Positions 323 to 30,685 of a DNA stretch of 46,365 nt are shown piece after piece. The position numbers and the translations under genes were made by a program. The stretch is taken from positions 1 to 46,365 of the forward strand of contig VHDH01000016.1 of NCBI GenBank assembly GCA_016871445.1. Direction: 5' to 3'. Positions within the stretch are counted from its first letter, which is position 1. Each line of letters starts with the position of its first letter. The notes under the pieces are model-generated. The model was not told the DNA's origin. It worked only from the letters and a program-made list of their open reading frames with translations, and made no database searches. Source of the stretch: Verrucomicrobiota bacterium (GTDB taxonomy: Bacteria; Verrucomicrobiota; Verrucomicrobiia; Limisphaerales; SXTU01).

Positions 323-3300
323 ATGTCAATTTGCCGCCTGCTGGCCGTCCTCGCTGTGGTGTCGCATTTGCCGTCCGCATTCAGCGCCGGGCCCTCCGCT
401 CCACTCGATGTCATCTGCGGCCAAGTCGCGGGCGTGCCGGCGACGACGCTGCCGCTCAAGCTCGAGCGCGGAGCACGGATCGCGTTCATCGGCAACGGGC
501 TATTTGAACGGATGCAGGAGCATGGCTGGTTCGAGGCAATGGTGCTGCAACGCTTCGCCAAAGAGGAACTCATCCTCCGCACGCTGGCCTGGCCGGGGGA
601 TGAACTCACCGTGCAGCCGCGCCCGGAGGCGTTTGGCGACCTGCATCAACACCTCGCGACGCAGAAGGCGGATGTGATCTTCGCGGCTTACGGGTTTAAC
701 GAATCCTTTCGCGGCGCAGAGGCGCTGCCGCAGTTCGAGCGCGATCTGGCCCAGTTCATCGTCGGGCTGAAGCTGCGCCGGTTCAACGGCAAGACACCGC
801 CGCAGGTCGTGCTGGTCTCGCCCATCGCACACGAGAACTTACAGAACCCCAACTGGCCCGACGGCCAAGCGAACAACGTGCGGCTGAAACTTTACTCCGA
901 TGCGATGGCCCGCGTGGCGACGCGCTGCGGCGCGGCGTTCGTGGATGTGTTCACGCCGACACGCGTGGCGATGGAGGCTGCGGCCAAACGGGTTCCGCTC
1001 ACGGACAACGGCATCCACCTTAACGCGGCTGGCTACCGGCTTTTCGCTGAGCAGCTTTTTCGCGGCCTCTTTGACGAATCTGCACCCGCGCCCGCGCCCG
1101 CGCTGAAAGTCACCGTCGAGGACCGCAACTTGCAATTCCTCCGGCGCTATCGCGCGCTCAATGGCTTCTACATTACGGGCGGACGCAAGGAACCTTACGG
1201 CGTGGTGAACTTCCCCGGCGAGTTCGAGAAGTTTGACCGCATGATTGCCCACCGCGACCGCCGCGCGTGGGACCTCGCGCAGGGCAAGGCCGTCCCGCCG
1301 CAGGTGGACGACAGCAACCTCCCGCCGCTCCCCACCATCACCGGCAACCGACCCATCAACGAGTGGATGACGCCCGCCGATGAGTTAAAAGCGTTCACCG
1401 TGGACCCGCGCTTCGAGGTGAGCGTATTTGCGTCCGAGGCGATGTTCCCCGACCTCGCCAAGCCCATCCAGATGCGCTGGGACACGCGTGGCCGACTGTG
1501 GGTTTCGTGCTCCACGACCTATCCGCAAGTCATCCCCGGCGAAGAGCCAAACGATAAAATCATTGTTCTCGAGGACACAAACCAGGACGGCCGCGCAGAC
1601 AAGTGCAGCGTGTTCGCCACGAACCTGCACATCCCGCTCTCGTTTGAGTTCGGCGACGGCGGGCTCTACGTGAGTGAGCAGCCGCACCTCACGTTCATCA
1701 AGGACACCGACGGCGACGGCCGCGCAGACTTGCGGAAGCTGATTTACACCGGCTTTGGCACGGAGGATTCGCATCATTCGCTGCACGACTTTACGTGGTC
1801 GCCGGACGGCGATTTGCTGTTCCGCGAAAGCATCTTTCACCATAGCTCGGTCGAGACGCCCTACGGCCCGGTGCGCGCGCGGGACAGCTCGTTCTTCCGC
1901 TTCACGCCGCGCACGCGGCGGCTCACGGCGTTCGGCAGTTACATGAGCACAAACCCGTGGGGGCTGACGTTTGATGAATGGGGCTGGCATCTCGGCAGCC
2001 ATCCGGTCTTCGCGAGCGCGGTGCACGCGCTGAACGCGCCGTTCCCCGAGCAGCACGTGCCGGCGGGGAATTTCTTCCCGGCCTACAGTGGCACGTGCGG
2101 GCAAGAGTTCATCTACAGCCGGCACTTCCCCGACGAGCTGCAAGGCAGCTTCGTCCGCGTGCGCTATAAGCCGGTCAACACCGTCGAGCTGCACCGCTGG
2201 GTGGAGCGGGATACCCACTTCGAGGAGCAGCGCATCGGCCACATCATCCAGTCGGCGAACCTCTCTTTCATTCCGGTGGACGTGCGCTTCGGCCCGCGCG
2301 GCGACCTCTTCATCTGCGACTGGTATAACCCGGTGAAGGGCCACATGCAGTATTCCCTCCGCGACACGCGACGCGACAAGACCAGCGGCCGCATCTGGCG
2401 CGTGACAGCGAAGAACCGCCCGCTGCAAGCCGCGCCCAAAATCGCCGGCGAACCCATCCCGCAACTGCTCGATCTGCTCAAGTCGCCTGACTACCGCACG
2501 CGCTACACCGCCAAGCTCGAACTCCGCGAACGCGATGCGCAACAGGTGAAGACTGCGTTGAGCCAATGGCTCGCCGGCCTCGACGCCAAGGCCCCGCGCC
2601 ATTTGCATCACCAACTCGAAGCGCTCTGGCTCACGCGCAGTCTGGGTGCGGAGAATCCTTCGCTCCTCGCCAAGCTCCTCGAAGCCCCGAACCACCATGT
2701 CCGCGCCGCCGCCACGCACCAGTTGCGCTGGACCGCGCCGTCGGCCACGACGCACGCGCAGCTCCGCGCCCGCGCCAACGACACCAACGGCCTCGTGCGC
2801 CTCGAAGCCGCCATCACCGCCAGCTACGTCGGCACCGCCGAGGCCCGCCGCGCCGCGCTCGACCTGCTCGCGCATCCGATGGACAGCTACCTCAACTACG
2901 CCCTCCGCACCGCGCTCGACTCCGAGCCGCTGCGGAAGTTCGGCCCTGCGGGAGGCAAGCTGGAGACGGAGCATCCGAAGCTGCCCGCTTTCGTCGCGCT
3001 GACAAATCCGAAGGCCAAAGCCAACGCGAAGAAAGAAGCGCCCGACCCGTTCGACAAGTTAAACCCGACCGTCGTGCGCATGAGCACCGTGCCGGAGCGC
3101 ATGCTCTTCACCGTGCTGGAGTTCAAGGTGAAAGCCGGCGCGCCGGTAAAGCTGACGTTTGAGAATCCCGACGCCACCCCGCACAATCTGCTCATCGTCC
3201 AGCCCGGCACCGAGGACGCGATCGGTAACGCCGCCAACGAAATGGCAAAGCTGCCCGATGCGTTTGAGAAAATGGACTTCATCCCCAAGTCCGACGCCAT

Positions 3301-3442
3301 CCTGCACGCCACGAAAATGCTAAAGCAAAACCAGTCCGAGACGCTGCGTTTCCATGCGCCGAAGCAGCCCGGCAAATATCCCTACATTTGCTCCTTCCCC
3401 GGCCACTACCTCGTCATGCGCGGCATGATGGTGGTGGAATAA
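323..3442 (+). CDS. Secreted SGNH hydrolase / PVC-type beta-propeller dehydrogenase / cupredoxin fusion
   Basis: An exported protein of 1039 residues. The ATG at 323 is preferred over the in-frame start at 245 because it opens directly on a signal peptide (MSICRLLAVLAVVSHLPSAFSA). Domains in order: an SGNH/GDSL-like hydrolase (about 45-255; IAFIGNGLFERM block and GIHLNAAGY near the catalytic Asp-His end); an APAPAPA linker; a PVC-type membrane-bound dehydrogenase beta-propeller (about 365-720) with two Ca-binding-like loops (DTNQDGRAD, DTDGDGRAD); HEAT-like helices (about 730-880); and a C-terminal cupredoxin (about 930-1039) with His in TPHNLL, Cys and His in YICSFPGH, and Met in RGMM, the usual type-1 copper ligands. 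No CxxCH heme site was found, unlike the relative at 33232-36327. It probably oxidises a sugar or alcohol in the periplasm and passes electrons to copper; the substrate is unknown. The DUF1549 gene follows after 46 bp. Confidence 0.85.
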   Translation: MSICRLLAVLAVVSHLPSAFSAGPSAPLDVICGQVAGVPATTLPLKLERGARIAFIGNGLFERMQEHGWFEAMVLQRFAKEELILRTLAWPGDELTVQPRPEAFGDLHQHLATQKADVIFAAYGFNESFRGAEALPQFERDLAQFIVGLKLRRFNGKTPPQVVLVSPIAHENLQNPNWPDGQANNVRLKLYSDAMARVATRCGAAFVDVFTPTRVAMEAAAKRVPLTDNGIHLNAAGYRLFAEQLFRGLFDESAPAPAPALKVTVEDRNLQFLRRYRALNGFYITGGRKEPYGVVNFPGEFEKFDRMIAHRDRRAWDLAQGKAVPPQVDDSNLPPLPTITGNRPINEWMTPADELKAFTVDPRFEVSVFASEAMFPDLAKPIQMRWDTRGRLWVSCSTTYPQVIPGEEPNDKIIVLEDTNQDGRADKCSVFATNLHIPLSFEFGDGGLYVSEQPHLTFIKDTDGDGRADLRKLIYTGFGTEDSHHSLHDFTWSPDGDLLFRESIFHHSSVETPYGPVRARDSSFFRFTPRTRRLTAFGSYMSTNPWGLTFDEWGWHLGSHPVFASAVHALNAPFPEQHVPAGNFFPAYSGTCGQEFIYSRHFPDELQGSFVRVRYKPVNTVELHRWVERDTHFEEQRIGHIIQSANLSFIPVDVRFGPRGDLFICDWYNPVKGHMQYSLRDTRRDKTSGRIWRVTAKNRPLQAAPKIAGEPIPQLLDLLKSPDYRTRYTAKLELRERDAQQVKTALSQWLAGLDAKAPRHLHHQLEALWLTRSLGAENPSLLAKLLEAPNHHVRAAATHQLRWTAPSATTHAQLRARANDTNGLVRLEAAITASYVGTAEARRAALDLLAHPMDSYLNYALRTALDSEPLRKFGPAGGKLETEHPKLPAFVALTNPKAKANAKKEAPDPFDKLNPTVVRMSTVPERMLFTVLEFKVKAGAPVKLTFENPDATPHNLLIVQPGTEDAIGNAANEMAKLPDAFEKMDFIPKSDAILHATKMLKQNQSETLRFHAPKQPGKYPYICSFPGHYLVMRGMMVVE

Positions 3443-3488
3443 TGCACATTGATGAATCGTCAGCCTGGGCCAGTCCAACTCGCGCTGC

Positions 3489-6400
3489 ATGAAATTGTCC
3501 AGTTCCCTGGCCTTATTTGCGCTAGCGCTGCCCGCCCTTGCCGCCGAGAAGGTGGATTACCTGCGCGACGTAAAGCCCGTGCTGGCCGCGCGCTGCTTCG
3601 CCTGTCACGGCGCGCTCAAGCAAGAAGGCAAGCTGCGGCTCGACACGGCAGAGTTCATCCGCAAGGGGGGCAAGCATGGCCCCGCCATCGTCGTAAGCAA
3701 ACCCGCTGCAAGTTTGCTGCTGAAGAAGGTTTCTGCCGCCTCCCTCGACGACCGCATGCCCCCCGAGGGCGAACCGCTGCACGCGCCCCAACTAGCCGCG
3801 TTACGCGAATGGATTGCCGCCGGCGCGCCGGCACCACGAGACGAGCAGCCAGAGAGCGATCCGCGGGAGCATTGGGCGTTCAAGGCCCCAGTGAAGGCCA
3901 CACTTCCAAAAACCGCCAATCGCCAATCGTCAATCGCCGATCCGGTTGACGCCTTCCTCGAAGCCCAGCGGCGCGCGCAGAAGCTCACCGCCCAGCCGCC
4001 CGCCGAACGTTCCGTCTGGCTCCGGCGCGTGACGCTCGACCTCACCGGCCTGCCGCCCACGCTCGCGGAAACCCGCACGTTTGAGGCCGACACTTCACCG
4101 CAAGCACGCGAGCGCGTCGTCGAGCGTCTCCTCACCAGCCCGCATTATGGCGAACGTTGGGGCCGGCACTTCATGGACATCTGGCGTTACAGCGATTGGT
4201 GGGGGCTAGGCGCGCAGCTTCGTTACAGTCAGAAGCACATCTGGCACTGGCGCGACTGGATTGTGGAATCCCTCAACGCGGACAAGGGCTATGACCGGAT
4301 GATTGTCGAGCAGCTCGCCGGCGACGAACTTGCTCCTACCGACCCCGCCACGCTTCGCGCCACCGGCTTCTTGGCGCGGAACTATTATCTCTTCAATCGC
4401 ACGACTTGGATGGACGACGTCGTGGAACACACGAGCAAGGCATTCCTTGGCCTCACGATGAATTGCGCAAAGTGCCACGATCACAAATACGACCCGCTCT
4501 CGCACACCGACTACTATGCCATGCGCGCCATCTTTGAGCCGCACCATGCGCGGCTCGACGAACTGCCCGGTACGACGGACCTGGAAAAGGATGGCCTGCC
4601 GCGCGCCTACGATTTGCACCTCGACCGCCCCACTTACATCCACACGAAGGGCGATGAGAAGAGGCCTGAGACCAACCAAGTCATCCGCGCCGCCATTCCG
4701 GTCGCGCTTGCGTTCAAGCCGCTCGACATTCAACCAGTGAAGCTCCCACCGCCCGCGCATCAACCCGCACTTCAGCCGTGGGTGCTCACCAACCACCTCG
4801 CCGCCGCGCAGGAGCAAATTACTGCCGCGCACCAAGCCGTCGAAGCTGCGAAGAAGAAGCTCGCTGAAGCGGAGGCCAAGCAAGCGATCCATCCGACGAA
4901 CTTGTCGGGGCAGGTGTCTCGCCTGCCTAGTCCCGCGGGCGTCTCGCCCGCCGCTCAGAAAGCTGACGTGGGTGTCCGGGCTCCAACCAACTCGCCCGTC
5001 GCCGCCCCCAAGCCGCTCTTCACCGACACCTTCGCCACTGCGAACCCGCAACTCTGGGAACTGCTCGACGGCGAGTGGAGCTACGCAAGCGGCGTGCTCC
5101 GCCAATCGGCAGTAAAGCCCGCCCGCAGCGCCGCCCGCAGCCGCGCCGACCATCCCGCCGACTTCCTCGCCACCTTCAAGTTCCGGCCCACCGGCGGCGC
5201 GACCTACAAATCCGTCGGCTTCACCTTCGACACCACGGATGCCCGCGAATCACTCGTGTATCTCAGCGCGCACGCGCCCGGCCCGAAGCTGCAAATCGCC
5301 TACGGCCGGGCCAACCAATACACCTACCCACCCGCCGGCACGCAGGCCCGCGCCGTGAAGCTTGGGGAAATTTACGAAGTGACCATCCGCGTGCGCGGCC
5401 CGCTCATCAACGTGGCCGTCAACGGCGAGCACGCGCTGGCCTTCACGCTGCCCGAGCGCACACCAGGCAAATTCCAGCTCATCACCTACGACGCCACGGC
5501 GGACTTTCTCGCCTTCGAGTTGAGTGCGCTGCCCGCCGACGCGCTGCTCGTGAAATCCAGCGCGCCCACCGCCGCACCCACGGCCTTAACCTCGCCTGAG
5601 CAAGCTCGCCTCGCGCTCAAGGCCGCCGAACTCGCACTTGCCGCCGCCGAACTGCGGCCCGCGATGGTCCGCGCCGGGTGGGAAGCCGATTCAAAACGCG
5701 ACCAAACCAACCTGCTCGCCGCCGCCGCGCTGACCGAAGCCAAGTTCAAGCTCGCGCAAGGCGAGGCCGACCTTGCAAAGGCGGAACTGGAAATGCTCTC
5801 CCCCACCGGCGATCCCAAGAAGAAGGAGCCCGATGCCGAGAAGAAATTGAAGGCTGCGCAAGACGCGATGGCAAAGGCGCAGAAAGCCATCGCGTCGCCG
5901 GGCACGAACTACACGTCGCTCCGCGCCACGCTGAAGGCCTTCGAGGGGCCGGACGAAACCGAAGCGCATCGCCTGCTTCCGTATCCCACCATCAGCACGG
6001 GCCGGCGACTCGCGTTCGCCAACTGGCTCGCCGACCGCCAAAACCCGCTGACGGCGCGCGTGCTCGTGAACCACGTCTGGACCCGCCACTTCGGCCAGCC
6101 ACTGGTCGCGAATGTCACCGATTTTGGCCGCCGGGCCACGCAACCCGTTCACGCTGACCTGCTGGACTGGCTCGCCGTGGATTTCATGGAGCACGGCTGG
6201 AGCCTGAAACGGCTACATCGGCAGATGGTGTTGTCCGAGGCGTATCGGATGAGCAGCAGCCAGTCTTCAGTGAGCGCGAAGTCACAGGGGCGCGCGAAGA
6301 CAGGCTCGGAACTCAATACTGAATCACTGAACACTGAATACTCCGCCAGCTTCAGCCGCGACCCCGAGAACAAATTCTTCTGGCGCATGAACCCGCAGCG

Positions 6401-25278: not shown

Positions 25279-26664
<1,386 letters not shown>

Positions 26665-26728: not shown

Positions 26729-27196
26729 TCAAAGCGGACGGATCTTGAACAATGGCTGGCCAAACTCGACCGGCTTGGAGCTTTCGGCGACGACAGCCGT
26801 GACGACACCCCGCATCTCGGCCTTGATCTCGTTCATGACTTTCATGGCCTCGATGATGCAAACCACGGTGTCGGGGCCGACCTCGCTGCCCACATCCACG
26901 TAGGGAGCAGCTTCGGGAGACGGGGTACGATAAAACGTCCCGATCATCGGCGATTTGATTTCAGAATCCCCCGGCAAGCTGGCGGCGGCAGCGGGGGCCA
27001 ACGTTGGTGCGGATAACGCCGCCACCGGAGCGGGGCTGGCGAACTGCTGAACCACGGGGGCATCCTCGTAAGTAACCGACCCACCAAGGTTGCCGCGTTT
27101 AAGCCGGATTTTGAACTCCTGCTTTTCCAACTCGAACTCCGCTATGGAGTTCTTCTTCATCAAATCAATGATGGCTTTGATGTCTTTTAGGTCCAC
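26729..27196 (-). CDS. accB: Biotin carboxyl carrier protein of acetyl-CoA carboxylase
   Basis: A 155-residue carrier. The GTG at 27196 is chosen because a strong GGAGGA ribosome-binding site (27201-27206) lies four bases upstream and the protein then begins MDLKDIKAIIDLM, as in AccB; a TTG at 27208 would put the ribosome-binding site inside the gene. An N-terminal helical segment is followed by an Ala/Pro linker (about 50-75), then the biotinyl domain (about 80-155) with GTFYRTPSPEAAPYVDVG ('thumb') and EAMKVMNEI, in which Lys119 is biotinylated (the more usual sequence is EAMKMMNEI). Partner: AccC, next gene. Confidence 0.94.
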   Translation of the reverse strand: MDLKDIKAIIDLMKKNSIAEFELEKQEFKIRLKRGNLGGSVTYEDAPVVQQFASPAPVAALSAPTLAPAAAASLPGDSEIKSPMIGTFYRTPSPEAAPYVDVGSEVGPDTVVCIIEAMKVMNEIKAEMRGVVTAVVAESSKPVEFGQPLFKIRPL

Positions 27197-27200
27197 AGAG

Positions 27201-27206
27201 TCCTCC
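27201..27206 (-). promoter_or_regulatory. Ribosome-binding site deciding the accB start
   Basis: GGAGGA four bases before the GTG at 27196. It supports that start over the TTG at 27208. Confidence 0.7.
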
Positions 27207-27408
27207 AAGTTGGGAGATGCGAGACGTTATGAGAGCAATTGCTCATTCGCTGGGAAAGGCGAGGCGGGCAAGCCGAACCGCGCTTTCTCGTTTCAATGGG
27301 AATGAAGGTTAAAGAGGGGGAGCACAGGGCGTCAAGCAGACTTTCCAGCAGGCAATCTCCATGAGGCCTACCCACAAAACCGATAGTTTCTTTTAAAAAA
27401 TCCACCAC

Positions 27409-27843
27409 TTATGGGGACGTTAACTGTAAAGCTGCCTGAAATCCCAAATAGTATGATTGTTCTCCGAATCCGGCGATTTGCCCGCGACACACAGCGGCGA
27501 TCATCGACCGGTGCCGAAACTCCTCGCGGGCATGGATGTTGGAAAGATGAATTTCAATGGTAGGCACCCCGGCTGCAGCGATGGCATCCCGCAATGCCAC
27601 ACTGGTGTGGGTGTAAGCCGCCGCGTTAACAACGATAACGGACGCGTTACCCCGGGCTTCCTGCACCCAAGTGACCAATTCCCCCTCATGGTTCGACTGG
27701 CGGAAATCGACTGAAACACCAGCCTTGGCCGCCATTTCTCGCAACTTCAGCTCAATATCCGCCAGCGTGGTGCGCCCATAAATCTCTGGTTGGCGCTGAC
27801 CCAAGAGATTTAGGTTCGGACCGTTTAGGAACAGGATATGCAT
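27409..27843 (-). CDS. aroQ: Type II 3-dehydroquinate dehydratase
   Basis: A 144-residue shikimate-pathway enzyme that dehydrates 3-dehydroquinate to 3-dehydroshikimate. MHILFLNGPNLNLLGQRQPEIYG opens the protein with the family signature and catalytic Tyr22. FRQSNHEGELVTWVQEA, VVNAAAYTHTSVALRDA, TIEIHLSNIHAREEFRHRS (catalytic His and nearby Arg) follow. The size is typical (about 145). The start is ATG 27843. It lies upstream of accB-accC on the same strand; the 212-bp gap to the accB start could hold another promoter, but I saw no clear one. Confidence 0.95.
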   Translation of the reverse strand: MHILFLNGPNLNLLGQRQPEIYGRTTLADIELKLREMAAKAGVSVDFRQSNHEGELVTWVQEARGNASVIVVNAAAYTHTSVALRDAIAAAGVPTIEIHLSNIHAREEFRHRSMIAAVCRGQIAGFGEQSYYLGFQAALQLTSP

Positions 27844-27932: not shown

Positions 27933-28814
27933 TTACTTCACATACAGTGCCTGCTGGAGCTGGGCCACCAGCACGTGCGCGTTGGGGAAGCGCTTCTCGG
28001 GATCGCGTTCGAGGCACTTGAGGAGGATGCGCTCGACAGCGATGGGGATGTCCTCATTGATCTCGCGGGGCGGGGTGATGGGATGCTTCTGGTCGAGTTG
28101 CTTGCGCAGCACCGCCTCGGGAGTCTCGCCGATGAAGGGCTTGCGGAAGGTCAAGACCTCGTATGCCATCACGCCGAACGAGAAGATGTCCGCCCGCTGG
28201 TCGAGCGGCTCGTGGCGGATATGCTCCGGAGCCATGTAGGCGGGCGTGCCGGCGTTGCTGGGCATCCGCGTCGGCTTCTTCGGCAGCGGCTGGGCGAGGT
28301 CGAAGTCCACCAGCCGGATGTCACCGGCCTGCGTCACGAGGATGTTCTCGGGCTTGAGATCGAGGTGGATGAAGCCCTTCTCGTGCATGTGTTCGAGGGC
28401 GATGGCCGAGTCAATGAGGATGTTCCCGACGAACTCGCCGAGAACCGGGTCGTTCCGCATGATGAGGTGCTTGAGGTTCCAGCCGATCACTCGCTCCAGC
28501 AGCGTGTAATCCACCCCGTCCAGCTTCCCGTGCCGGTGGAAGCCGATGATGTATTGGTGGCCATGGATCTTCTCCAGCACCTTGCACCCGTGGAGGAACT
28601 GCTTGCGCGCGGTCTTGTCCACCGTGCCGTTGCCCAGCAGGCGGCGAAGCGCGTAGGTGTTGCCTTCCTGGTCGGTCGCGGTCCAGATCTCCGCCGTGCC
28701 GCCCCGGTTGATCAACTCATGCAGGGAGTAGGGGCCGAAAAGGTGCGGCGCGTTCGGATCTTGAACCGTTGGCTTGTTTTTTTTGCCGAGAAAACCCAAT
28801 GGAAGAAATCGCAT
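27933..28814 (-). CDS. Hanks-type protein kinase with altered catalytic motifs
   Basis: A 293-residue soluble kinase-fold protein without a membrane span or sensor domain. The Gly loop is LINRGGTAEIW (35-44), the alpha-C helix includes KVLEKI, and the catalytic loop is HLDLKPEN (His150-Asn157), so Asp152 and Asn157 are present but the Arg of HRD is Leu. The beta3 lysine is replaced by Arg (YALRRL, Arg57, for VAIK), and the metal motif is DFD (170-172) instead of DFG. YMAPEHI (APE) and DIFSFGVMAYEVLTF are normal. Known Hanks kinases need the Lys and the DFG Asp; the Asp remains. It could be a weakly active kinase or a regulatory pseudokinase. It lies 89 bp downstream-adjacent to aroQ on the minus strand but may have its own promoter. 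Confidence 0.85.
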   Translation of the reverse strand: MRFLPLGFLGKKNKPTVQDPNAPHLFGPYSLHELINRGGTAEIWTATDQEGNTYALRRLLGNGTVDKTARKQFLHGCKVLEKIHGHQYIIGFHRHGKLDGVDYTLLERVIGWNLKHLIMRNDPVLGEFVGNILIDSAIALEHMHEKGFIHLDLKPENILVTQAGDIRLVDFDLAQPLPKKPTRMPSNAGTPAYMAPEHIRHEPLDQRADIFSFGVMAYEVLTFRKPFIGETPEAVLRKQLDQKHPITPPREINEDIPIAVERILLKCLERDPEKRFPNAHVLVAQLQQALYVK

Positions 28815-28969: not shown

Positions 28970-29884
28970 GTGCGCACCACCGGAATCTTGCTCTGTTATG
29001 TGGCCAGCGTGTTCCTCCTGGCGGCGCTGCTCGCCCCGGGGCTCTTCCTCCTAGGCCAGTCGGCTGCCGCCGAGTTCGCCCAGTTTCAACCTCTTGCTAG
29101 CCAGCCCTTCCACCGCTACGTCAACCGTTGTCTGCTTGTCATCGCCGTGCTTGGTCTGTGGCCGCTCCTGCGCGCGCTGGGCCTTGCCGACCGGCGCGCG
29201 TTAGGCCTGACCAGCCCGTTGGCGGCGCGGCGGGAACTCGGCCTTGGTCTAGCGCTGGGTTTCGGCTCACTGCTGCTCGCAGTACTCGCACTAACCGGCG
29301 CGGGTGTACGCGGGTTCAACTTTACCCTGCCGCAAGCGGGCATGCTCCAGTTGCTCGGCACCGCCACGCTTAGCGCTGTTGCGGTGGCGCTATTGGAGGA
29401 AATCCTGTTTCGCGGCGTCATCTTTAGCACGCTGCGAAGCGTCTGGCCGCTCTGGGCGGCGCTGCTGGCGAGCGCGGTGGTGTACTCCGTCCTGCACTTT
29501 CTCGCACGGGTGGAGCACACAGGGCCGGTAGGCTGGGACGCCGGGTTTGCGCTACTGCCACGCATGATGCGCGGTATTGCCGCGCCCGAAAACCTTTTGC
29601 CCATGCTCACGCTCACCGTAGCTGGCGTCGCGCTCGGCTTGGCTTACTTACGCACAGGCAACCTCTGGTTCGCCATTGGCCTGCACGCGGGCTGGGTCTT
29701 CTGGCTTAAGGTATTTAAGACCTTGACCACCGCTGGCACGCCAGCCGGAGCGTTCTGGGGCACGGAGAAGTTGCTGGATGGCTGGCTCGCCTGCCTCGTG
29801 ATGGCCGGTGTGCTCGCGGTAATTACGCGCCTGCCGCAATCACCTCCGCTTATCCGGCCCGATGAAATACCGCCCCGCGATTGA
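28970..29884 (+). CDS. CPBP family intramembrane metalloprotease
   Basis: A 304-residue integral membrane protein with about seven or eight hydrophobic segments. The CPBP (Abi/CAAX protease, Rce1-like) motif LLEEILFRGVIF contains Glu143, Glu144 and Arg148 (EExxxR), followed by SVLHFL (His176) and AIGLHAGW (His239), the putative zinc-binding or catalytic residues. The GTG at 28970 gives MRTTGILLCYVASVFLL at the N-terminus. In bacteria such proteins act in prenyl-CAAX-like proteolysis, bacteriocin immunity or protein secretion; the substrate is unknown. It is followed 48 bp later by comF-like. Confidence 0.87.
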   Translation: MRTTGILLCYVASVFLLAALLAPGLFLLGQSAAAEFAQFQPLASQPFHRYVNRCLLVIAVLGLWPLLRALGLADRRALGLTSPLAARRELGLGLALGFGSLLLAVLALTGAGVRGFNFTLPQAGMLQLLGTATLSAVAVALLEEILFRGVIFSTLRSVWPLWAALLASAVVYSVLHFLARVEHTGPVGWDAGFALLPRMMRGIAAPENLLPMLTLTVAGVALGLAYLRTGNLWFAIGLHAGWVFWLKVFKTLTTAGTPAGAFWGTEKLLDGWLACLVMAGVLAVITRLPQSPPLIRPDEIPPRD

Positions 29885-29932: not shown

Positions 29933-30685
29933 TTGCACCTGAACCCAGTTTCCCCCAGCCCCGTTCGTGACTGGCTCGATGCCGGGCTGAACTTTCTTTT
30001 CCCCGCCGTATGCCAGCTTTGCGGCGACGCCCGCGCCACCGCCGCCGAGGGTTACGTTTGCCCCAGCTGCTGGCAGAACGTCCGGTTCATCGCCCCGCCG
30101 TGGTGTGACCGTTGCGGCCTGCCGTATCCGGGCGACATCACCACCGCCTTCGAGTGCGCCAACTGCCGCGACCTCGACCTCCACTTTCGCTGGGCGCGCG
30201 CTTCGGTTGTTGCGAACAATTTCCTGCGCGGCGTAATCCACCGCTACAAATACAACCGCGAACTGTGGCTCGAGCCGTTCCTCGCCGACCTGCTGGTGCG
30301 TCAGGCCGCACCCGCGCTGCGCGAGGAAAAGCTGGCTGGCATCGTTCCCGTCCCACTACACCCAGTGAAGCAGCGCGAACGCGAGTTCAACCAAGCCGAA
30401 CGCCTCGCCCGCCCGCTGGCCGAATGTTTGGGTATTCCCGTGCGAACTGACTTGGTGAAGCGCATTCAGCCCACGCGCACACAGACTCAGCTGGACAAAC
30501 ATGCTCGCGCCGACAATGTCCGCCACGCCTTTGCGCCGGTGGACCCCCAGTCGCTCCAAGGCGAGCGTCTTCTTGTCATTGACGACGTGTTAACCACGGG
30601 TGCGACCACCAGCGCCCTTGCTCGCGTGCTGCACGAGAATGGCGCGGGCGAGGTCCTCGTATGGACGCTAGCGCGCGGGCTGTGA
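29933..30685 (+). CDS. ComF family phosphoribosyltransferase-like protein
   Basis: A 250-residue protein with a double zinc-ribbon N-terminus (Cys27/30, Cys43/46, Cys58/61, Cys75/78) and a phosphoribosyltransferase domain: VVPVPLHPVKQREREFNQAERLARPLA is the ComF signature (P-x-x-x-x-R-x-R-[GE]-F-N-Q), and LLVIDDVLTTGATTSALARVL is the PRPP loop. The listed start is TTG 29933; there is no nearby ATG. ComF proteins are ATP-dependent helicase partners in competence or recombination in some bacteria and gluconeogenic-type PRTases in others; the role here is not determinable. It is codirectional with the CPBP gene. It ends 17 bp from the convergent DUF6807 gene. Confidence 0.88.
   Translation: MHLNPVSPSPVRDWLDAGLNFLFPAVCQLCGDARATAAEGYVCPSCWQNVRFIAPPWCDRCGLPYPGDITTAFECANCRDLDLHFRWARASVVANNFLRGVIHRYKYNRELWLEPFLADLLVRQAAPALREEKLAGIVPVPLHPVKQREREFNQAERLARPLAECLGIPVRTDLVKRIQPTRTQTQLDKHARADNVRHAFAPVDPQSLQGERLLVIDDVLTTGATTSALARVLHENGAGEVLVWTLARGL

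Follow-up and report, generated by a model that had tools for sequence, protein, structure and literature searches.

A predicted soluble Hanks-type kinase family of Verrucomicrobiota with arginine at the beta3 lysine position and DFD at the DFG position

In ordinary protein kinases a glutamate of helix alphaC holds the beta3 lysine, and this lysine touches the phosphates of ATP. Plant AGCVIII kinases retain both residues, and the KSR proteins keep the DFG motif unchanged. The DYD (pseudo)kinases of O'Boyle et al. 2025 combine a beta3 Arg, the absence of the alphaC Glu, a second Asp at the DFG position and a retained catalytic-loop Asn, and a published model places their beta3 Arg in a salt bridge with the second Asp of the motif, which makes up for the absent alphaC Glu (PMC12599244). 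The family described here shares these features and differs in having DFD and HLD, in lacking a transmembrane part, in belonging to Verrucomicrobiota and in its linkage to accA and accD; further, its changes occur in every member read, whereas about 60% of DYD proteins are described as annotated pseudokinases (PMC12599244). Metazoan KSR1 and KSR2 have a beta3 Arg, keep the catalytic Asp and Asn and are reported to bind ATP-Mg, in KSR2 with one Mg and with reported phosphorylation of MEK1; in KSR2, however, alphaC is described as being out and the Arg as close to the DFG Asp (PMC4718504). The KSR proteins have no close relation to the present family. DFD is given as the normal Mg-binding loop of plant AGCVIII kinases (PMC3499706), and a conserved beta3 Arg is also reported for the bacterial ActPs2 pseudokinases, in which the HRD Asp is Asn and DFG is mostly deleted, whereas both Asp are kept in our family (PMC12599244). 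Lastly, the PknB-type (PASTA) Hanks kinases share the fold and give the best sequence match, but our family has no PASTA or transmembrane part and is altered at the Lys, Glu, HRD, DFG and G-loop positions. A literature search returned no paper on an Arg/Asp kinase family of Verrucomicrobiota, the string 'verrucomicrob' is absent from the review PMC12599244, and a published atlas (PMC12233097), which covers 42 families of bacterial kinases, may include such sequences.

The window analysed here is the whole 46,365-nt stretch of contig VHDH01000016.1 (GCA_016871445.1) from a Verrucomicrobiota bacterium of the order Limisphaerales, and it contains the following gene:

27933..28814, minus strand: Arg/Asp-type Hanks kinase, stand-alone kinase-fold protein P0002, 293 aa (ORF, Pfam, AlphaFold2, structure match)

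The original prediction, made from the sequence alone, had placed a soluble kinase-fold protein here with exact coordinates; the strand, which it did not give, is minus, and the 293 codons start at an ATG at 28814. The Pfam Pkinase model matches residues 29-281 (E 2.7e-41, 142.1 bits against a cut-off of 31.7), whereas the NCBIfam PASTA-kinase model NF033483 scores 183.2 bits against a cut-off of 450. A single sequence gave an AlphaFold2 model with a pLDDT of only 37.3, and the model used was instead built from 16 input sequences (pLDDT 85.2, pTM 0.85). Its closest fold among solved structures was Mycobacterium tuberculosis PknB (5u94; Z 33.7, rmsd 1.6 A, 256 residues aligned, 27% identity), which was also the closest solved structure by sequence (phmmer, 1.7e-30); KSR and POMK were absent among the 50 structure matches listed by VIA-align, a result that is uninformative on relationship. 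The predicted lack of a transmembrane domain was borne out by a highest 19-residue Kyte-Doolittle mean of 1.18. Among the 74 relatives checked by hydropathy alone, from the domain start to the C-terminus, no stretch exceeded 1.6. Judged from these profiles, the protein is small, soluble, cytoplasmic and single-domain, with no sensor domain.

The active site departs from that of canonical kinases at the following positions, where members are the 85 family sequences and comparison kinases the 25 non-member sequences defined below:

28692..28709, minus strand: G-loop residues 36-41, N-R-G-G-T-A in place of G-x-G-x-x-G; residue 41 is Ala (55), Thr (23) or Ser (7) in 85/85 members, Gly in 18/25 comparison kinases
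28644..28646, minus strand: beta3 Arg57 at the VAIK Lys position; Arg in 85/85 members, Lys in 25/25 comparison kinases
28587..28589, minus strand: Gly76 at the alphaC Glu position; Gly 80, Ser 4 and Ala 1 among 85 members, Glu in 25/25 comparison kinases
28359..28367, minus strand: His150-Leu151-Asp152 at the HRD position; residue 151 is Leu in 78 and Met in 7 of 85 members, Arg in 22/25 comparison kinases; Asp152 in 85/85 members
28299..28307, minus strand: Asp170-Phe171-Asp172 at the DFG position; Asp170 and Asp172 in 85/85 members, residue 171 Phe 83, Leu 2, Tyr 0; DFG Gly in 25/25 comparison kinases

All six residues named in the original prediction (Arg57, Leu151, Asp172, Asp152, Asn157 and Asp170) are present as stated in the ORF translation; its list of three changed catalytic positions was right in what it named but incomplete, with Gly76 (alphaC Glu) and Ala41 (third G-loop Gly) overlooked. 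The concern that a Lys might stand in a shifted position was checked in the phmmer alignment to PknB, which places ALR57 opposite AVK, Gly76 opposite the alphaC Glu, HLD152 opposite HRD and DFD172 opposite DFG, and Arg57 is therefore not misassigned. A displaced WNK-like Lys was also considered and rejected, as beta2 position 42 is Glu or Asp in 56/85 members and Lys in only 6. The N-lobe has no other invariant Lys/Arg column, the runner-up being alphaC column 71 with Lys or Arg in 62/85.

The 85 members are distinct rows of one alignment (the window protein, L008-L014, L075-L114, L134-L153, L155-L160 and L203-L213). Sequences L019-L074 were read in an earlier alignment outside this count, in which all full-length rows, from more order-level genomes, carry the same Arg and DxD; L028 was left uncounted, as a contig end cuts it before the G-loop and beta3. 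In every relative read, the changes from beta3 Lys to Arg, alphaC Glu to Gly (rarely Ser or Ala), DFG Gly to Asp and HRD Arg to Leu or Met occur together with the loss of the third G-loop Gly, the G-loop being degenerate at two Gly positions, and the APE Glu does not vary. Asp152, Lys154, Asn157, Asp170, Gly189, Pro196, Glu197 and Arg275 are invariant in 85/85 members, Thr190 is found in 84/85, and the catalytic-loop signature (HLDxKPEN and GT) is of the Ser/Thr kinase type. Arg57 and Asp172 occur in 85/85 members, the window included, and in 0/25 comparison kinases, a contrast to be read with the members having been chosen by similarity to a motif-bearing query, so that the motifs are partly selected for, and with the comparison kinases being the top-scoring non-members plus hand-picked others and no random sample. 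Both residues are invariant, and covariation within the clade can thus not be shown.

Since the members were gathered in this way, the tree was rebuilt with the six motif columns blanked. The relatives formed one clade in both trees, with SH-aLRT support of 99 (all columns) and 98 (motif columns blanked), and the question of whether the changes define a clade can thus be answered with a monophyletic family. Both trees were quick searches with no bootstrap; the full-column tree left out 11 rows (10 members near others and the repeat kinase L214) and L017, which has no N-lobe, and the blanked-column tree additionally left out the canonical kinase of the window's own genome, giving 24 comparison rows.

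In the window's order the family was found in 261/293 genomes at E <=1e-50 and in 144/154 of the best-quality genomes, usually as one strong copy per genome, with identities of 78-91% within the genus and of about 41-60% between families of the order. Class-wide (188 genomes) and phylum-wide (288 genomes) searches yielded further relatives at 30-47% identity. The variant had been suggested for a search in other PVC genomes, and it was recovered in our order, class and phylum searches, which covered Verrucomicrobiota. Across the phylum the distribution is patchy (43/288 genomes, counted from the listing), and many sampled genomes of the window's class are without the family. The profile used on the 288 phylum genomes (A1) was built from 67 relatives, and its scores split with a gap between members (at least 234 bits) and the rest (at most 215 bits, with much longer reading frames). 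Viral contigs gave only three weak kinase relatives at 27-28% identity, and a scan of genome contigs with peptide patterns had a reach of close relatives only. Families f8 and f25 have two divergent family copies per genome, and the Arg/Asp set is present in both copies of G007 (L092, L063) and G075 (L094, L074). Three public MAG records (L011, L013 and L014), whose titles name Klebsiella pneumoniae, Akkermansia muciniphila and Proteobacteria, contain 80-85% identical copies with the same adjoining CPBP gene as in the window's genus, and these titles look wrong. Judged by its sequences, the family is old and carefully conserved in Verrucomicrobiota, with an active site that was probably rewired once.

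The best explanation, to which we give a probability of roughly 55%, is a soluble Hanks kinase, rewired once, in which an Arg57-Asp172 pair would replace the Lys-Glu pair and which would be active or at minimum nucleotide-binding. Under this mechanism, Arg57 would be held by Asp172 in lieu of the absent alphaC Glu and would still touch the ATP phosphates, Asn157 and Asp170 would hold Mg, and Asp152 would remain the base. The kinase would be non-RD and would escape the ordinary regulation in which the HRD Arg contacts a phosphorylated activation loop; more weakly, the gene order described below suggests that acetyl-CoA carboxylase and the cell-wall (L,D-transpeptidase) functions may be its targets or may run in step with it. 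The original prediction had offered two readings, a pseudokinase scaffold or an unusual ATP-binding mode, and the second now appears the favoured one because the base, the catalytic-loop Lys, the Asn and the Mg-binding Asp are invariant in 85/85 members and because, together with the Arg change, the partner Glu has gone and an Asp has been gained. That these residues are so strictly kept speaks for phosphotransfer, or failing that for the binding of nucleotide. Neither HLD nor DFD is an argument for inactivity, as L163, a comparison kinase canonical in all other respects, has HLD and the plant AGCVIII kinases have DFD, and by the KSR2 precedent a beta3 Lys to Arg change need not kill activity. 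A swap of Lys-Glu for Arg-Asp is the simplest and most likely reading, a working though unusual kinase appears more likely than a decayed one, and it is most likely that ATP binding, and probably phosphotransfer, has been kept.

As the beta3 Lys is absent, the protein is a pseudokinase in the strict sequence sense, by the definition given in PMC12599244. A functional version of this reading, in which ATP (or nothing) is bound as a conformational switch and the protein, transferring no phosphate, provides another kinase or acetyl-CoA carboxylase with a scaffold or an allosteric partner, is possible but in our view rather unlikely. It accords with the degenerate G-loop, with the loss in all 85 members of the beta3 Lys and alphaC Glu by which a canonical kinase is recognised, with the soluble architecture devoid of a sensor domain, and with the presence in the same genome of at least one canonical soluble kinase as a possible partner; the phylum-wide keeping of Asp152, Lys154, Asn157, Asp170 and the near-invariant Thr190, however, goes beyond the needs of a scaffold. 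One candidate partner was L002 (358 aa), a soluble Hanks kinase with canonical motifs encoded directly after accA in the window's own genome, with homologues in 72/97 order genomes, and a conserved pairing was rejected because accA adjoined 1/30 fetched copies, the own one only. On the contig concerned (C133, locus L226), accA lies at 1498-2502 and this kinase gene at 2669-3745.

The mechanism proposed here for the rewired kinase would be that of the DYD kinases, beside which the family is set by description and not by tree. One rival reading is that the sequences from Verrucomicrobiota are a branch of the DYD family already in print, with neither mechanism nor family new. The three features common to both (Arg in beta3, an alphaC without its Glu, and DxD) speak for such a branch, which we nonetheless hold to be unlikely, as DYD proteins, by their published description, associate with the membrane, come from Actinobacteria and Firmicutes and have a middle Tyr (PMC12599244), and our family has no transmembrane stretch and no Tyr at this position. 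Moreover, six plasmid-borne matches were fetched of 731 records, and the five with a readable active site were canonical at the beta3 Lys and at the Gly of DFG/DWG.

Another transferase chemistry on the kinase fold, such as the AMPylation or glutamylation for which SelO and SidJ are precedents (PMC12599244), would fit the altered G-loop and Lys/Glu pair but is very improbable, considering that SelO and SidJ are described as keeping the beta3 Lys and differing elsewhere (PMC12599244) and that the catalytic loop here is of the Ser/Thr kinase type. Chance decay in a single genome and errors of sequencing or assembly are excluded by the conservation of Arg57 and Asp172 in 85/85 against 0/25, the 85 distinct sequences coming from many genomes, with 80-91% identity within the genus and presence in 261 genomes of the order.

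The neighbourhood of the rewired kinase gene in the window is as follows:

28970..29884, plus strand: CPBP (Rce1-like) membrane protease gene, divergent from the kinase, conserved neighbour in the order (Pfam PF02517, synteny)
29933..30685, plus strand: comF-like gene, divergent, conserved neighbour (Pfam PF18912; PF00156 below its cut-off; synteny)
27409..27843, minus strand: aroQ, type II dehydroquinase, 89 bp downstream of the kinase (Pfam)
26729..27208, minus strand: accB, biotin carboxyl carrier (Pfam Biotin_lipoyl)
25279..26664, minus strand: accC, biotin carboxylase (Pfam Biotin_carb_N and _C)

The row of aroQ, accB and accC downstream was rejected as a functional clue, as it was seen in the window only and is absent from seven genus-mate loci, three of which (L009, L010 and L012) have just 2.3-2.9 kb downstream. 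A comF gene is near the kinase in 6/7 genus loci with enough flank and in 16/22 order loci, and accD follows comF in 13/22 order loci, while accA was beside the kinase in 0/27 loci of the order with enough flank. In the window's own genome, accA and accD are on contigs other than that of the kinase.

Outside the order the usual row is kinase, L,D-transpeptidase, accA. In other classes, with f113 excluded, the same-strand genes after the kinase are a LysM-domain L,D-transpeptidase (20/23) and accA (22/23), and in other families of the window's class these two genes are downstream in 10/15 and 9/13 loci, respectively. Family f113 had neither acc gene near the kinase (0/11 loci) and has an aconitase-like reading frame before it. 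Immediately ahead of the kinase gene and in its orientation, 12 loci (L153, L159 and L204-L213) share a homologous reading frame of about 660-690 aa, which Pfam identifies as an aconitase in L153. At ten others (L142, L144, L146, L149, L151, L155-L157, L160 and L203) a divergent upstream gene, rhomboid-like by Pfam in L146, stands at the place of CPBP/comF, again from a membrane protease family. A total of 54 accA loci were also viewed, of which 16 have the transpeptidase upstream, 9 with the kinase and 7 without it. These pairs lacking the kinase, like the loci of the window's order and of f113 with no accA beside it, speak against a tight bond between the kinase and the acc genes. In sampled nearly complete genomes of f64 g120 (e.g. 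G294 and G309) the accA query gave no match at E 1e-60.

The linkages are spread over the 35 family codes examined (accA in 14, accD in 15 and both in 4), and the common ancestor may thus have had accD-comF-CPBP on one flank of the kinase and transpeptidase-accA on the other. Going by this gene order, the kinase may plausibly have a role close to acetyl-CoA carboxylase and the cell envelope. Eukaryotic acetyl-CoA carboxylase (ACC) is described as being controlled by SNF1/AMPK phosphorylation (PMC5126230, PMC9704532). The more specific proposal, that an active kinase with an Arg-Asp (DFD) anchor for the ATP phosphates regulates acetyl-CoA carboxylase and peptidoglycan cross-linking as an old verrucomicrobial counterpart of AMPK/SNF1-ACC control, is doubtful at present; such a bacterial parallel would be striking if true, and its support is the gene order.

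Kinases are often judged alive or dead by their beta3 Lys. In the present family, which is mostly single-copy, near-universal in one order and conserved across the phylum, this Lys and its partner are swapped together, with the remaining catalytic machinery fixed. In the literature found here, the idea of an Arg-Asp replacement rests on a model of membrane-bound DYD kinases (PMC12599244); the protein described here is small, soluble and single-domain, and would therefore offer a clean test of Arg-Asp replacing Lys-Glu in phosphotransfer. We describe it as a predicted soluble, phylum-wide Arg-Asp kinase family with gene-order ties to fatty-acid and cell-wall genes, and the products of its neighbours accA, accD and the L,D-transpeptidase gene are the concrete first candidates for a substrate or partner.
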